NCBI GenBank assembly: GCA_025454835.1
Contig: JALONQ010000026.1
Span: 1 to 33,196, forward strand
From: Bacteroidota bacterium
GTDB lineage: Bacteria; Bacteroidota; Ignavibacteria; UBA10030
DNA: 33,196 nucleotides
Reading direction: 5' to 3'
Below are positions 15,164-21,021 of this stretch, in pieces. How positions within the stretch are numbered: the first letter of the stretch is position 1; every line of letters begins with the position of its first letter. The position numbers and the translations under genes are program-made. The notes below the pieces were generated by a model. It was given only the letters and a program-made list of their open reading frames with translations. It was not told the DNA's origin and did no database searches.

Positions 15164-15910
15164 TCAATACCTGTCCAGCTTGAAGCTCTCGCCCAGATAC
15201 AGCTTTCTCGCTTCTGGATCATTCGCCAGTTCCTCTGCGGTACCGTGCTTCAGGATGCGCCCTTCGAACAGAAGAAATGAGCGGTCCGTGATCGAGAGGG
15301 TCTCATGCACATTGTGGTCGGTGATGAGCACGCCGAGATTGCGCGACCTGAGACCCCGGACGATGGTCATGAGGTCTTCGACGGCGATCGGATCGATGCC
15401 CGCGAAAGGCTCGTCGAGCAGAATGAACTTCGGGTCGAGCGCCAGCGCCCGTGCGATCTCCGTCCGGCGCCGCTCGCCCCCTGACAGGACGAAACCCTGG
15501 CTCTTCGCGATGCGGGTCAGGCCGAAGTCGTCGAGCAGGCGGTCCGTCCGGGCATGCTGCTCCTTTGAACTCAGCTTCGTCATCTGGAGCACGGCCAGGA
15601 TGTTGTCGCGAACCGACAACTTGCGAAACACCGAGGCCTCTTGCGGAAGGTACCCGATGCCCAGCCGCGCTCGTCGGTACATAGGCTCCGTCGTGATGTC
15701 GGCACCGTCGAGATGCACCGTGCCCGCGTTCGGACGCACCATACCGACCGTCATGTAGAAGGTCGTCGTTTTGCCCGCCCCGTTGGGCCCGAGCAGACCG
15801 ACGATCTCTCCCTGACGCACAGAAACGCTCACGTCGTTGACGACGGTTCGTTTCTTGTACCGCTTGACGAGCCCGCGGGATTCGAGAACACTGTGGCTTG
15901 GCTGGATCAT
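15164..15910 (-). CDS. lptB: LPS export ABC transporter ATP-binding protein
   Basis: LptB is the cytoplasmic ATPase that, with LptFG, extracts lipopolysaccharide from the inner membrane and pushes it along the LptC-LptA bridge. From ATG 15910 it is 248 residues, close to the family length. Seen: Walker A GPNGAGKTT (41-49), Q-loop in GIGYLPQEASVFRKL, ABC signature LSGGERRR, Walker B FILLDEPFAGIDP, and H-loop ITDHNV. The phrases YLPQEASVFRKL and LSGGERRRTEIARALA are highly characteristic of LptB rather than of other ABC ATPases. The in-frame GTG at 16000 would add 30 unrelated residues. It is the last gene of the kdsA-lptB operon; lptF/lptG are not in the window. Confidence 0.96.
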   Translation of the reverse strand: MIQPSHSVLESRGLVKRYKKRTVVNDVSVSVRQGEIVGLLGPNGAGKTTTFYMTVGMVRPNAGTVHLDGADITTEPMYRRARLGIGYLPQEASVFRKLSVRDNILAVLQMTKLSSKEQHARTDRLLDDFGLTRIAKSQGFVLSGGERRRTEIARALALDPKFILLDEPFAGIDPIAVEDLMTIVRGLRSRNLGVLITDHNVHETLSITDRSFLLFEGRILKHGTAEELANDPEARKLYLGESFKLDRY

Positions 15911-16036: not shown

Positions 16037-17350
16037 CTAGGGCGTCTCTGCGTCGGACATCGTCAGGCCGATCCGCGTCGGCCTGGATCGAAGCCAGCGG
16101 AAGCCGTCGAGGTTGTTTTCGGATTCCCTGCCGTTCACCATCTTCTCCGGCAGGAATTCGCCCTGCACGCCCCGCATCACCTTAATGCGGTCGATCTGCC
16201 CATCGGCAAAGTCCATGATGATCCGGTCGCCGCTCGAACGGTTGGCGCCATTGGGAGCCGCATCATCATACAAGTAGTAGAGACTGGTCGCCGTCCCTTC
16301 GGCATCGATCTGCTGCACCTTTCCGTCGGCGAACCGCATCGTGATGCGGCGACCCGTCAACTGGTCGAACCGCCCCGGACGAAGCGAGTCGGCCCGCGAG
16401 ACCGCCATGGCCCTTCCGCGAACCAAGACCGAATGAAGCTTGCGATCCCTCAGCCGGATCTCGATCGTATCGCCCGTGAGCTGGTTGCGGCCATGCCACA
16501 CCACCGGGTCGCCGGACAGCACGATCCGGTCGGCGCCCGTGTAGAAGGCCGCCAGAGCGCACCGGGCAGCAAGGTCGGTCCGGGCGATGCGTACGCTATC
16601 GCTCGCGATCAGGACCCGTTCGGCACCGCCCAACGATTCCATCCGAATGCTCGCGACCAGCAATGTATCGACCCCGCCGTCGGAAGTGCTGTCGGCCTGG
16701 AGCATCCGGGCGGCACGCGGAACAACGGACCGGTCCTCGGCGTCGAGGTTGATCAACGAATCACCGAAGACCGTGGTTCCATCTGACAGCTGGCGTACGC
16801 GCACATCCCCCACGGCAATCGACCGTTGATCCGATTCCCAGAACGTCAACCGGTCGCTCGTCAGCACCGAGGCGGAGTCTTCGACCTTCACGGACCCGGT
16901 GAACACGGCCCGTCGCTCATCCGGAAAGTACTCACCGTCGGACGACGTGAGCACCGAGCCGGTCCGTTCCAGGCGCACACGCCCCCGCATGACCACGCGT
17001 CGCTGCAGACCGTAATACACGCCCTCATCGGCGAAGATCGTCACCGTGTCCCGACGCACGCGGACACGTTGATAGAGCTCCAGGCGCTCGTCGGCGATGA
17101 ATTGCAGCGCCCGGTCTGACCAGACATTGACGAAGCCGCCCTCGCGCAGGTTCTGGACGAAATGGACATTCCCGATGAGTTCACGAATGTCCTGGCCGTT
17201 CATGATGCGGCCCTTCAACTCCTGGGCCGACTTCAGCTCGATGACGCCCGGCCGTCCCTGCGACCAACCGATGGTGGCCAGCAAACACACGGAGAGCACC
17301 GTCGAGCGGGACATCGACCAGCACCGCTTCCTCTCCCAAGTGACCGTCAT
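16037..17350 (-). CDS. lptA: LptA/OstA-like LPS transport protein
   Basis: A periplasmic protein of the OstA/LptA beta-jellyroll superfamily that would form the LPS bridge across the periplasm. About 437 residues from ATG 17350; ATG 17383 and ATG 17314 are also possible, the last giving a compact signal peptide (MSRSTVLSVCLLATIGWSQ). The mature part is a series of short beta-repeat phrases (VWSDRALQFIADERLELYQR, IFADEGVYYGLQRRVVMRG, TGDTIEIRLRDRKLHSVLVR), the register seen in OstA domains. It is more than twice the length of E. coli LptA, closer to the long OstA-like proteins of Bacteroidota. It lies between lptC and lptB, which strongly supports the assignment. A GC hairpin (17400-17414) lies just upstream. 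Confidence 0.85.
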   Translation of the reverse strand: MTVTWERKRCWSMSRSTVLSVCLLATIGWSQGRPGVIELKSAQELKGRIMNGQDIRELIGNVHFVQNLREGGFVNVWSDRALQFIADERLELYQRVRVRRDTVTIFADEGVYYGLQRRVVMRGRVRLERTGSVLTSSDGEYFPDERRAVFTGSVKVEDSASVLTSDRLTFWESDQRSIAVGDVRVRQLSDGTTVFGDSLINLDAEDRSVVPRAARMLQADSTSDGGVDTLLVASIRMESLGGAERVLIASDSVRIARTDLAARCALAAFYTGADRIVLSGDPVVWHGRNQLTGDTIEIRLRDRKLHSVLVRGRAMAVSRADSLRPGRFDQLTGRRITMRFADGKVQQIDAEGTATSLYYLYDDAAPNGANRSSGDRIIMDFADGQIDRIKVMRGVQGEFLPEKMVNGRESENNLDGFRWLRSRPTRIGLTMSDAETP

Positions 17351-17443
17351 GGCGTCGTTGCTCCGTTCCCCGTCGCGACACATCCGAAAGAGGCCTCGCC
17401 GCCGGACACCGGCGACGGGCGTGATCGTCTTCTTCGTTCCGAC

Positions 17444-17971
17444 CTACTGCCCCGTGGTCTCACCCGTGGCCCTGAAGATGCGATAGTTCTTCAGATTCTG
17501 GTCCGACTCCATCCCCATTCCCTGCAGCCGTTCCTTGGTGGAGAGGATGCGCACGAAGGCCGGAGTATGGATCAGCTGCCGTTTCTGATCCCAATAGAGC
17601 TCCTCCGTGTAGAGCTTCGTGCCGGTCTCCGACGTCACGACGACCTGCTGGCGTGCCTCCAAGTTGTTCGTGACCTCGTCGATCGCCGCCTCACGGCTCG
17701 TCAACACCGTCGTCGGACGGCCGTCGGGATCGTAGAACTGAACGTGCACGCTGTCGCTCAGATGCGTCATGCGGCTCGTCGCGTAGACCTTGAAGTAGCC
17801 GCTGTGGATCACGGCCCGCACCATCCCCGAGTCAGAGATGACGATCTCGCTCTTCCACGACTCCTGCTGCGGCACCGACCGGCTGTCGACCGTCGTCAGG
17901 ACGCTCGGCTTGATCTTCTCCTCGCAGGCGGTGAGCGCCACCGCCGTTAGCATGATCGCCAGTCGCTTCAC
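17444..17971 (-). CDS. lptC: LptC-like LPS export lipoprotein
   Basis: Start GTG 17971 overlaps the kdsD stop as GTGA, giving a 175-residue protein. The N-terminus is a lipoprotein signal (KRLAIMLTAVALTAC) with lipobox LTAC, so it is probably lipid-anchored rather than held by a TM helix as in E. coli LptC. The remainder is a beta-rich LptC/DUF1239-type domain (SGMVRAVIHSGYFKVYA, then VQFYDPDGRPTTVLTSREA, then LYTEELYWDQKRQLIHT); the last phrases are typical for LptC (TEELYWD...). Function: receives LPS from LptFG and passes it to LptA. The open frame continues upstream to 18256, but that part is the antisense frame of kdsD and was excluded. Confidence 0.88.
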   Translation of the reverse strand: MKRLAIMLTAVALTACEEKIKPSVLTTVDSRSVPQQESWKSEIVISDSGMVRAVIHSGYFKVYATSRMTHLSDSVHVQFYDPDGRPTTVLTSREAAIDEVTNNLEARQQVVVTSETGTKLYTEELYWDQKRQLIHTPAFVRILSTKERLQGMGMESDQNLKNYRIFRATGETTGQ

Positions 17972-18951
17972 GACGTCGTCTGTCCGGGACCGATACCGGC
18001 CTTCACGAGGTCGTGCAAGTGGACCATCCCGACCGGGTGATGCTCGTCGTTCGTCACGATGAGCTGAGTGATCTTGTAATGCTCCATCTGCTCCAACGCC
18101 GTCGCCGCCAGGATCGTACGCTGAACCGTCTTCGGGTTGCGCGACATCACGTCCATCGCCCGCATCTGACCGACCGTCGTGGTGCGTTGCAGCAGGCGGC
18201 GCAGGTCGCCGTCCGTGATGATGCCCGTCAGCGCCCCTCCCGCGTCGACCACGCACGTGGCGCCCAGCCGTTTGGAGGTCATTTCGACGATCGCATCGGA
18301 AAGCGAGACCTCCTCACGGACGACCGGTAACGCATCACCCGAAACCATCAGTTGGTCCACCTCCAGCAGGAGCTGCTTGCCGAGATTCCCTCCCGGGTGG
18401 AACATCGCGAAATCTTCCTTCGTGAAGTGGCGCCGCTGGAGAAGCGCCACGGCGAGGGCGTCGCCCATGACGAGCGCCGCGGTGGTCGAGGCCGTCGGAG
18501 CCAGGTCGTGAGGACAGGCCTCTTCCACGACCGATGCGTCAAGGACGATGTCGCTCTTTTGCGCCAACTCGGATCGCAGATTGCCGATCAGCGCGATCAC
18601 CGGCACGCCGAGTTTCCGGAAGACCGGCAAGAGATGCCGGATCTCGTCCGAGTCGCCGCTCTTGGAGATGCAGATGACCACGTCATTCTTCTGGACGGTG
18701 CCGAGGTCGCCGTGCACGGCGTCCCCCGGATGGAGGAAGATCGCCGGCGTGCCTGTCGAGTTCATCGTCGCAACGATCTTGCGCGCAATGATGCCCGACT
18801 TGCCCATGCCGGTGACGACGACGCGTCCGACGGCGCCGGCAAGGAGGTCGACGGCGCGAACGAATTCAGCGCCGATGCGCGGTTCGAGCGCCGCCACGGC
18901 GGCGGCCTCGATACGCACGACACGTTTACCGTGGTCTTGCGAGTTGCTCAT
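17968..18951 (-). CDS. kdsD: D-arabinose 5-phosphate isomerase (SIS + CBS)
   Basis: KdsD (KpsF family) converts ribulose 5-phosphate to arabinose 5-phosphate, the first precursor of Kdo. The 327-residue product has a SIS sugar-isomerase domain (about 25-165; VVVTGMGKSGIIARKI, HPGDAVHGDLG, ISKSGDSDEI) and two C-terminal CBS domains (about 200-325; ITDGDLRRLL, TNDEHHPVGMVHLHDLVK). The motifs PHDLAPTASTTAALVMGDAL and FHPGGNLGK are characteristic of this family. It is coupled to lptC by a 4-nt GTGA overlap and follows the unnamed gene by 6 bp. Confidence 0.96.
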   Translation of the reverse strand: MSNSQDHGKRVVRIEAAAVAALEPRIGAEFVRAVDLLAGAVGRVVVTGMGKSGIIARKIVATMNSTGTPAIFLHPGDAVHGDLGTVQKNDVVICISKSGDSDEIRHLLPVFRKLGVPVIALIGNLRSELAQKSDIVLDASVVEEACPHDLAPTASTTAALVMGDALAVALLQRRHFTKEDFAMFHPGGNLGKQLLLEVDQLMVSGDALPVVREEVSLSDAIVEMTSKRLGATCVVDAGGALTGIITDGDLRRLLQRTTTVGQMRAMDVMSRNPKTVQRTILAATALEQMEHYKITQLIVTNDEHHPVGMVHLHDLVKAGIGPGQTTS

Positions 18952-18957
18952 GGTCGG

Positions 18958-19701
18958 TCATCGGTAGAAGGAAAACCACCGCCGAAAGAACGAGCGCCGC
19001 GGAACCGGCGGGCGGAGCGGATCGTCATCCGCTATCTTGGTGCGCACATGGTTGTAGGAAATGAATGCGACCGCGAGGTCCGCTTCGGTGAATGTGCCGA
19101 GGGCCTCGAACAGCCGGTCCGACCGGAGGGCCAGCCGAGGGTCGCGAACGCCCGTCCGCCGCATCAACTCACTGTAGAACAGCGTGACCGGAACAGGCCG
19201 ACAGATGCCCGTTCGACCGCTGTGCACCCACAACCGGCGATCCTGCGGACAAATGGCCAGCGAGACCGGCGACCCTGATTCGGTGGACATGCCGACCACG
19301 CGCGGCTGCGCAGAACACTGCGGACACGGTCTGCCCGGCAGCCATTCGGAATACGTCCATCGATGCTCGTGAGCACCGCTGCCGGGTTCGACGATCTCCA
19401 CCTCGATCTGTCCTTCGAACTCCTCCCGGACGGTCACCGAGCCGCGCAGCTGCTTCGCAACCAATTCGCCGAAGGCGATCGCCGAAGGCAACGGCGACTC
19501 GAGGTCGGCCCGGTGCTTCGGAGCGGCAAGAACGAGGTTCCCATCGCCTCGCCGTCCAATGGCAACGACCTGCATCGTCTCGATGCGCACACGGACCTGC
19601 GCATACCCGGGACGCTCGGCGGGCAAGACCCACCAGAGCAACTCTCGTTCACGACCACTCAGGGAACGCGGAAAAGATTCAGCCACGATTCTGATGCGCA
19701 A
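18958..19701 (-). CDS. Unrecognised conserved-looking protein in the Kdo/Lpt operon
   Basis: I do not recognise this family. The frame runs 247 residues from TTG 19701 (overlapping kdsC by 23 nt) or 242 from GTG 19686 (8-nt overlap). No signal peptide or TM segment is evident. The N-terminal third has RELLWWVLPAERPGYAQVRV and GRRGDGNLVLAAP; a beta-rich acidic stretch follows (REEFEGQIEVEIVEP); then CPQC at mid-protein and a second CPQ about 25 residues later (single Cys), suggestive of an incomplete zinc ribbon. The C-terminus is basic and aromatic (RRSFFRRWFSFYR), perhaps membrane- or LPS-interacting. Its placement between kdsC and kdsD, with overlap on one side and a 6-bp gap on the other, says it is co-translated with Kdo genes. 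A role in LPS synthesis is inference only. Confidence 0.75.
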   Translation of the reverse strand: MRIRIVAESFPRSLSGRERELLWWVLPAERPGYAQVRVRIETMQVVAIGRRGDGNLVLAAPKHRADLESPLPSAIAFGELVAKQLRGSVTVREEFEGQIEVEIVEPGSGAHEHRWTYSEWLPGRPCPQCSAQPRVVGMSTESGSPVSLAICPQDRRLWVHSGRTGICRPVPVTLFYSELMRRTGVRDPRLALRSDRLFEALGTFTEADLAVAFISYNHVRTKIADDDPLRPPVPRRSFFRRWFSFYR

Positions 19702-20185
19702 GGATCAGATCGATCACTTCACGGACGGCCCCGTGGCCTCCGGTGCGACGACAGACATAGTGGACGGACTTCACAACCGCCGGCACAGCATCCTTTGGAG
19801 CGGCCGAGAATCCCACGCGCATCAACACCGGCAGATCGGGGTCGTCGTCTCCGATGTACGCCACCTCGGCATCGGTCAGCCCGTGCTTTCGGCAGATGTC
19901 GTCGTAGGCCTTTCCCTTGTCATGCATATTCTGATGCACTTCGGTGATGCCGAGCTCGGCGGCGCGCTGTTCCACGACCTTTGACAGACGGCCGGTGATG
20001 ATCCCTATCTTGACGCCGGCACGCTGGAGCTTCATGATTCCGTAGCCGTCCTGCGTATTGAACTTCTTCAACTCCTCGCCGCTGGTCGAGTAGTACACTC
20101 CCCCGTCGGACATGACGCCATCGACATCCAGCAACAACAACTTGATGCGCCGCAACCGGGCTTTCTTCTGGCGTGGCGTGGTCAT
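19679..20185 (-). CDS. kdsC: 3-deoxy-D-manno-octulosonate 8-phosphate phosphatase
   Basis: KdsC is a HAD-superfamily phosphatase that removes phosphate from Kdo 8-phosphate. The 168-residue protein is a capless HAD of the family length: motif I LLLLDVDGVMSDGG (nucleophile D20, D22), motif II IIGIITGR-type (GIITGRLSK), and motif IV IGDDDPDLPVL. The sequence between motifs I and II (FNTQDGYGIMKLQRAG) is diagnostic for KdsC. Its start overlaps the kdsA stop as ATGA (20182-20185), so the two are translationally coupled. Confidence 0.95.
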   Translation of the reverse strand: MTTPRQKKARLRRIKLLLLDVDGVMSDGGVYYSTSGEELKKFNTQDGYGIMKLQRAGVKIGIITGRLSKVVEQRAAELGITEVHQNMHDKGKAYDDICRKHGLTDAEVAYIGDDDPDLPVLMRVGFSAAPKDAVPAVVKSVHYVCRRTGGHGAVREVIDLILAHQNRG

Positions 20186-21021
20186 GAACGCACCGTCGCT
20201 CGTCGGGCAGAGTCGACCGCCTTGACCTGCTTGATCAGACCCTCGAGGAGGTCCAGTTTCAGCTGGCTGGCCGCGTCGCTCAGCGCTTTACGCGGATCGG
20301 GATGGGTCTCGACGAACAACGCATTGATGCCGACCGCCGCCCCCGCCCGGGCAAGCGGAAAGATGAACTCGGGCTGGCCTCCGCTCGTCGTCGCGGCCCC
20401 CGAAGGTAGCTGTACGGAATGCGTTGCATCCAGAACGATCGGATAGCCCGTGCGCCGCATGATCTCCAGGCCACGCATGTCCACGACAAGGTTGTTGTAG
20501 CCGAACGTCGTCCCGCGCTCCGTCAACAGGACCCTGCGATTGCCGGTCTCCCGCACCTTTTCGGCCGCCAGAGCCATATCGGCCGGCGCGGCAAACTGCC
20601 CCTTCTTGATATTGACCACCCTGCCCGTCCGACCGGCGGCCTGCAAGAGTTCTGTTTGTCGGCACAAGAAGGCCGGGATCTGCAGAATATCGACGACCTC
20701 GGCCGCCGCCGCGGCCTCCATCTCCGTGTGGACGTCCGTCAGCACGGGCATTCCGAGATCGCGTCGCACCTCTTCCAGAACGGCGAGCGCCTTCTCCATG
20801 CCGATCGTCGTGAATGATCTCGCGCTGGTGCGGTTGGCCTTCTTATAGGAGGACTTGAAGACAACGGGCATCCGGTGCTTTCGGGCGATGCGCTGAACGC
20901 GCTCGGCCGTGCGCATCACGAGCTCGCGGCTTTCGACGACGCAAGGACCGGCGATGAGGACCAGTGGCGCCGAGCCGCCGAAGGTAATGCCGTGGACAGA
21001 GAATGATGAACCGGATCTCAT
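20182..21021 (-). CDS. kdsA: 3-deoxy-8-phosphooctulonate synthase (Kdo8P synthase)
   Basis: KdsA condenses PEP with arabinose 5-phosphate to Kdo 8-phosphate. From ATG 21021 it is 279 residues; the frame continues to 21084 but those residues overlap the promoter region and are not family-like. Seen: AGPCVVES (residues 25-31), FKSSYKKANRTS, FLCRQTELL, TERGTTFGYNNLVVDMRG, DATHSVQLPSG, and VETHPDP. The Cys at residue 27 corresponds to the metal-ligand Cys of the Aquifex-type enzyme (Asn in the E. coli type), so it is probably the metal-dependent class. It is the first gene of the operon kdsA-kdsC-unnamed-kdsD-lptC-lptA-lptB. Confidence 0.96.
   Translation of the reverse strand: MRSGSSFSVHGITFGGSAPLVLIAGPCVVESRELVMRTAERVQRIARKHRMPVVFKSSYKKANRTSARSFTTIGMEKALAVLEEVRRDLGMPVLTDVHTEMEAAAAAEVVDILQIPAFLCRQTELLQAAGRTGRVVNIKKGQFAAPADMALAAEKVRETGNRRVLLTERGTTFGYNNLVVDMRGLEIMRRTGYPIVLDATHSVQLPSGAATTSGGQPEFIFPLARAGAAVGINALFVETHPDPRKALSDAASQLKLDLLEGLIKQVKAVDSARRATVRS

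Follow-up and report, generated by a model that had tools for sequence, protein, structure and literature searches.

An orphan gene of the Kdo/Lpt operon in Ignavibacteria probably encodes a dispensable, membrane-touching helper of the LPS pathway

The DNA analysed here (the window) is a stretch of 33,196 nucleotides from a Bacteroidota bacterium of the class Ignavibacteria (assembly GCA_025454835.1, contig JALONQ010000026.1). It harbors an operon of Kdo and Lpt genes that all lie on the minus strand in the order kdsA-kdsC-X-kdsD-lptC-lptA/ostA-lptB, X being the orphan gene with which this work is concerned. A DAHP synthase gene comes after lptB, and ispE lies divergently, upstream of the operon. 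The gene kdsA encodes the Kdo-8-phosphate synthase (20182..21021, start inferred; TIGR01362, 379 bits against a cut-off of 314) and is followed by kdsC for the Kdo-8-phosphate phosphatase, the upstream neighbour of X (19679..20185; TIGR01670, 178 bits, cut-off 107). Downstream of X lies kdsD, the gene of the arabinose-5-phosphate isomerase (17968..18951; TIGR00393, 324 bits, cut-off 204). Next come lptC (17444..17971, with a start inferred at a GTG that overlaps the kdsD stop; TIGR04409, 70.8 bits, cut-off 38), an LptA/OstA-like gene (16037..17383) and lptB (15164..15910, start inferred; TIGR04406, 363 bits, cut-off 240). KdsA, KdsC, KdsD/KpsF, LptC and LptB each exceed at least one curated NCBIfam cut-off, whereas the LptA/OstA-like product scores above the gathering scores of the Pfam families OstA_2 and LptD_N and below the cut-off of TIGR03002 (LptA). 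The E. coli operon has the order kdsD-kdsC-lptC-lptA-lptB. Both operons keep kdsC, kdsD, lptC, an lptA-like gene and lptB close together and in the same direction. However, the operon described here contains kdsA and X in addition, and X has no counterpart in the family libraries searched.

X (18958..19686, minus strand) was delimited from its open reading frame and the starts of its homologues. It encodes 242 amino acids if translation begins at the GTG at 19686 and 247 if it begins at the TTG at 19701. The GTG is favoured, as most homologue starts picked by script lie about 3-9 residues ahead of the motif FPRxL. The first-pass annotation had placed a 247-residue product at 18958-19701 and gave no strand; its frame is confirmed on the minus strand with the stop at 18958, and the plus-strand translation of the same segment contains a stop. 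The overlap with kdsC that it described amounts to 23 bp from the TTG or 8 bp from the GTG, and kdsD indeed begins after exactly 6 bp. The sequence features it listed were also all located in X, namely LPAERPGY, the CPQC pair, an acidic stretch (EEFEGQIEVEIVEP) and a basic-aromatic C-terminal tail (RRSFFRRWFSFYR). Its cysteine count has to be corrected, since X has not one but two further cysteines besides CPQC, four in total. Only the first of these two is conserved, so that three cysteines are conserved in the family of genomes to which the source belongs. Neither a signal peptide nor a membrane helix is visible in X by eye. The gene is single-copy, and the sole match in its own genome at E ≤ 10 is X itself. 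Because 16 aligned homologues (one from the same genus, the rest from other genera of the family) share 39-53% identity with X over frames without an internal stop, sequence comparison confirms X as a real gene and more than a chance frame.

The first-pass annotation recognised no family for X, and the searches bear this out. X alone matched 0 families in Pfam and NCBIfam at E ≤ 10, PHROGs gave nothing usable (one match at E 0.33), and a sequence search of the PDB returned 0 matches for X alone or for profiles of 17 or 46 members. When 17 and 46 homologues were compared with the family libraries, only scattered weak matches appeared; the lowest E values, 0.013 for Imm68 and 0.0043 for a DNA-ligase model, each came from one member. 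The KdsA, KdsC and KdsD family models in Pfam and NCBIfam do not match X, the true kdsA, kdsC and kdsD being its neighbours, and the Lpt/OstA models (LptA, LptB, LptC, LptD) match neither X nor its homologues. A clear match to an unrelated known family, which the annotation had regarded as speaking against an LPS role, was not found in the searches run. An AlphaFold2 model of X built from 46 sequences (mean pLDDT 94.8, pTM 0.88) comprises a helical hairpin, strands in two groups, helices in the C-terminal part and a less confidently predicted tail. With the whole model, the best Foldseek match in the PDB had an E of 0.027 and none reached E ≤ 0.001; among the 50 matches listed, TM-scores did not exceed 0.18 by query length or 0.24 by target length. 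VIA gave a best Z of 3.2, with rows covering mainly residues 113-218. The N-terminal domain of hairpin and strands (residues 1-112 counted from the Ala of AESFPR; 19348..19683, minus strand) was also predicted alone (pLDDT 88.1, pTM 0.80); it had no Foldseek match at E ≤ 0.001 and a best VIA Z of 2.2. A viral structure library likewise held no match to the model at E ≤ 0.001 (best 0.0016). These results for the whole model and for the N-terminal domain would be compatible with a new fold, and are no proof of one. No paper on X was found in the open-licence part of PMC. The operon type is already known; X and its predicted fold have no convincing match in the libraries searched.

A single-sequence search (E ≤ 0.01) matched 20 of 32 genomes of the family, and a profile search matched 86 of 294 genomes of the class and 21 of 296 of the phylum, every one of the latter from the class of the source. 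The family count includes a remnant in G015 and a match in G026 (E 0.007) that contains 6 stops and was treated as chance. With a 65-row profile the counts were 87 of 294 for the class and 27 of 395 for the phylum, again all of the class. Each of these two counts includes a chance-like match in G118 (E 0.0013), 52 residues with 2 stops, which was likewise dismissed. An alignment-based scan of named contig records added 46 X loci, from Ignavibacteria, Ignavibacteriales, Melioribacter, Stygiobacter or records with broader names (Bacteroidetes, Chlorobi and similar); a single-sequence scan of the same records found no relative of X. One of these loci (L099) belongs to a cultured bacterium, Stygiobacter electus strain 09-Me. 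This set is not independent, as 33 of the 46 proteins are identical to X from sampled genomes, and the named contig records are all that the profile search covered outside the phylum. Within the genomes searched, X is thus confined to one class, the Ignavibacteria. Two copies are decaying, the remnant in G015 (L019), where about 30 residues that lie between kdsC and kdsD still match, and a copy in G029 (L014) with one in-frame TAG.

The neighbourhood of X was read in 89 genomes (86 of the class and three from the family search, including the G015 remnant and the TAG copy of G029). The gene 3' of X is kdsD in 86 of them and lptC in 2, and one contig ends there. The gap to this next gene has a median of 2 bp; it is at most 60 bp in 85/88 cases and negative, i.e. 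an overlap, in 32/88. On the 5' side lies kdsC in 58 genomes, kdsA within 400 bp in 20, neither gene within 400 bp in 10 (in G206 kdsA is 521 bp away) and a contig end in one. The named records agree, with kdsD downstream of X in 45 loci and one locus that has kdsA upstream and is truncated where its contig ends. Among the 88 readable contexts X was never found away from Kdo/Lpt genes. Hence the placement beside Kdo/Lpt genes that the first-pass annotation proposed as a check was found, and homologues lying mostly away from LPS genes, its refuting outcome, were not seen. Its expectation of conservation across the phylum holds in part, as the adjacency is conserved class-wide and not phylum-wide, the matches being restricted to the class. 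The 86/89 count for kdsD overstates independence, because a vertically inherited operon keeps its neighbours without any functional need.

Some of these operons have been rearranged. Six genomes of one family (f20) carry X-kdsD-lptC with no kdsA match in the 1.1-2.1 kb examined upstream. In G062 and G141, X-kdsD has neither kdsA nor lptC in the stretch examined. In G275 X abuts lptC (L140), and the sole kdsD found, 46% identical, lies in a different cluster; in G095 X lies directly before lptC, and a KdsD ortholog was not found in the genome. There are only a few such cases, and two of the genomes are incomplete bins (G095 with 92% and G141 with 74% completeness). Where kdsA, kdsC, lptC or kdsD have moved, X keeps kdsD or lptC as its neighbour.

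The surroundings of these rearranged loci hold some further genes. Directly after kdsA, G095 has a transaldolase/FSA-CBS fusion (L188:1489-2517, minus strand; PF00923 125 bits, PF00571 53 bits), which may replace KdsD (SIS plus CBS) as the source of arabinose-5-phosphate. The only kdsD-like gene of G275 is KpsF-like (L187:1498-2718, minus strand) and adjoins phosphopantetheinyl-transferase-like and flippase-like frames, both named by eye. In G062 and G141, DUF4905 and UPF0047 genes lie directly upstream of X-kdsD (L179:780-2056 and L162:249-1553, in the orientation of the X strand), called by family models in L179 and by eye in L162, and a frame that looks by eye like methionine synthase lies downstream.

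X is an accessory and not a core component of this operon, because operons that lack it are intact and most class genomes with kdsD have no X. The gene kdsD was found in 274 of the 294 class genomes (E ≤ 1e-40), as opposed to the 86 with X. From the genomes without a match (208 of the class and 12 of the family, in overlapping lists) 30 were picked by hand, and 28 of these had kdsD. Of the 28 loci, 25 keep kdsA-(kdsC)-kdsD with no gene where X would be; the other three (L132-L134) show no kdsA or kdsC match in the vicinity and were kept out of the count of intact operons. LPS is therefore made without X in most kdsD-bearing genomes of the class, and the accessory role that the earlier annotation had considered agrees with this distribution. 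At least 13 changes in X presence are required on a quick kdsD tree, whose 114 rows comprise 86 that have X and 28 that lack it. In a quick tree of 87 X proteins, from which the G015 remnant and the broken G029 copy were left out and which has several long branches, 9 of the 11 listed families each occupy one side of a branch, while f14 requires 4 changes and f24 requires 6. Both trees omit the named-record loci, 33 of 46 being duplicates of sampled genomes, and do not distinguish gain from loss. Taking the fixed position of X and the G015 remnant alongside the trees, we infer that X arose once, early on, and was then passed on mostly vertically and lost repeatedly.

We considered whether X substitutes for KdsC and rejected this idea, since X and operon kdsC are found in all four possible combinations: 19 X-less loci have kdsC in the operon and 6 do not, and among the X loci both kdsC and, in the 20 of 89 mentioned above, kdsA stand directly upstream. 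Absence of kdsC from the operon is in itself common in the class, with X (the 20 kdsA-X loci) or without it (L113, L120, L128-L131). The step must then fall to a different phosphatase, unless kdsC is located at another site in the genome.

The three conserved cysteines form part of a putative metal site. In the alignment of X proteins, CPQC (19315..19326, minus strand) provides the first pair, and a C-x2-D element (19240..19251, minus strand) contains the conserved third cysteine and an aspartate as the putative fourth ligand. Of the 99 distinct X proteins compared, all three cysteines are present in 38, none in 54, one in 7 and two in 0, and the fourth position in the 38 is D in 34 and H in 4. 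Judged from the alignment, the CxxC-C-D/H site is present or absent nearly as a unit, although the 99 proteins are related and the real number of gain or loss events is smaller than these counts. This near all-or-none pattern is as expected of a structural metal site, metal binding being putative. A catalytic cysteine common to all X proteins was rejected, as 54/99 lack all three. Matches of X homologues to zinc-ribbon families are weak and scattered.

Two known proteins invite comparison with this site. The zinc ribbon of NrdR is aligned by VIA with X residues 116-158 in 5 rows (Z 2.5-2.8, rmsd 2.5-2.8, 41-43 residues, 19-27% identity), a region that fits the CxxC...CxxD pattern of X. However, such Z values are usual for common arrangements, and kelch and WD40 blades and other unrelated chains reach equal or higher scores, up to 3.2. 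Unlike NrdR, whose zinc ribbon precedes an ATP-cone domain, X matches no NrdR or ATP-cone model in Pfam or NCBIfam at E ≤ 10, and only the ribbon region aligns, weakly. Also, the fourth ligand in X is D or H, and 54/99 X proteins have no cysteine in the ribbon region. LapB/YciM is a regulator of LPS assembly with a C-terminal zinc ribbon, and it controls the turnover of LpxC together with FtsH. X would resemble it in outline only, as a cytosolic protein with a zinc ribbon, a place in the LPS pathway and a link to the inner membrane. In contrast to LapB, X has no TPR and no Zn_ribbon_LapB domain (PF18073; 0 Pfam families at E ≤ 10), and neither is among the 14 weak families matched by 46 X homologues; X also has no transmembrane helix by eye, and LapB differs in size. 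Co-occurrence was uninformative about X as a LapB analogue, as PF18073 matched 143 of 149 genomes. Among the matches listed, those to PF18073 were mostly frames of about 450-500 codons, which fit RadA.

The second feature that deserves attention is the basic-aromatic tail (18961..19002, minus strand), which has low pLDDT in the model. A net charge of at least +3 in the last 15 residues is found in 83/99 X proteins, compared with 12/84 KdsC, 2/111 KdsD, 14/113 KdsA and 29/94 LptC-model matches. The tails contain recurring patterns such as KKSFFDFLRK. Several X proteins (L054, L139, L143, L165, L170, L171) lack the tail and stop at the core helix, and in 5 of these 6 genomes the profile match continues beyond the stop codon. 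Amphipathic membrane-binding tails are known from other proteins, and by analogy the X tail seems to resemble them. It may instead bind nucleic acid or protein.

Taken together, X, a small protein whose family had not been named before, is probably a dispensable, membrane-touching helper of the LPS pathway. The strong gene association makes it likely that X belongs to the Kdo/LPS pathway. Contact with the membrane seems on balance probable, judging from the tail. We would suggest the following sequence of events. X would be co-translated with KdsD (or LptC) and would remain in the cytosol. Its folded part would bind a partner of the pathway, the putative metal site only bracing the C-terminal half, and the tail would dock on the anionic inner leaflet of the inner membrane. 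At the membrane, X would then act as an adaptor that couples or tunes Kdo supply to the assembly or completion of LPS and to the Lpt export machine. Since X keeps to lptC in genomes whose kdsD ortholog is outside the operon or was not found, and to kdsD in those with no lptC close by, its partner might belong to either side. The adaptor mechanism as such is put forward tentatively, somewhat short of an even chance, while the reading as a whole, in which X is an accessory factor that is cytosolic, touches the membrane and is dedicated to Kdo/LPS assembly, we consider slightly better than an even bet. A bolder version, in which X founds a new family and a new fold and is a class-specific, membrane-tethered factor coupling Kdo and Lpt, invented once and often lost, is unlikely.

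Other functions are conceivable and explain part of the data. X might be a modifying enzyme with an unknown fold, acting in this class on Kdo, on lipid A or on a precursor of LPS and giving rise to an optional LPS decoration. The charged residues E12, R128, E172 and D60, conserved in 96, 92, 89 and 88 of the 99 X proteins, would also be expected of an enzyme, X is fixed among biosynthetic genes, and optional decorations typically show the kind of patchy distribution that X has on the kdsD tree. Yet neither a usable sequence match to an enzyme family nor a convincing fold match was obtained, and the CxxC-C-D/H element offers no catalytic centre common to all members, with the cysteines missing altogether in 54/99. 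We regard an enzymatic role as rather doubtful. It is also unlikely that X directly regulates KdsD or KdsA, and thereby Kdo supply, without any role at the membrane. The adjacency to kdsD in 86/89 genomes, the overlap with the next gene in 32/88 and the loci where X goes with kdsD away from kdsA and lptC (G062, G141) are what such a regulator would lead one to expect. However, G275 and G095 keep X by lptC while the kdsD ortholog is out of the operon or was not found, and the tail is left unexplained. Distance correlations over the 69 genomes with X, kdsA, kdsD and lptC, which are weak, exploratory and confounded by shared descent, gave a partial r of 0.26 for kdsD, 0.25 for lptC and 0.09 for kdsA, so that lptC equals kdsD in this respect. 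We favour a role at the membrane over activity on KdsD alone.

Finally, X could be a passenger whose function is unrelated and which joined the operon a single time, in the ancestor of the class, and was kept by vertical inheritance. A passenger would explain why X proteins for the most part group by family, why many lineages lack X and why the operon is conserved in its absence. Against this stand the several operon breaks through which X has stayed by kdsD or lptC and the 88 readable contexts with no copy away from Kdo/Lpt genes, and a mere passenger seems quite improbable.

X is present in 86 of 294 class genomes and has kdsD or lptC beside it in 88/88 readable contexts. As a candidate dedicated LPS factor it would, to our knowledge, be the first known for Ignavibacteria. 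LPS assembly is an antibiotic target and has been studied mostly in Proteobacteria. Since X is optional, a comparison between lineages that carry it and lineages that do not could reveal how cells match the supply of Kdo to the export of LPS.
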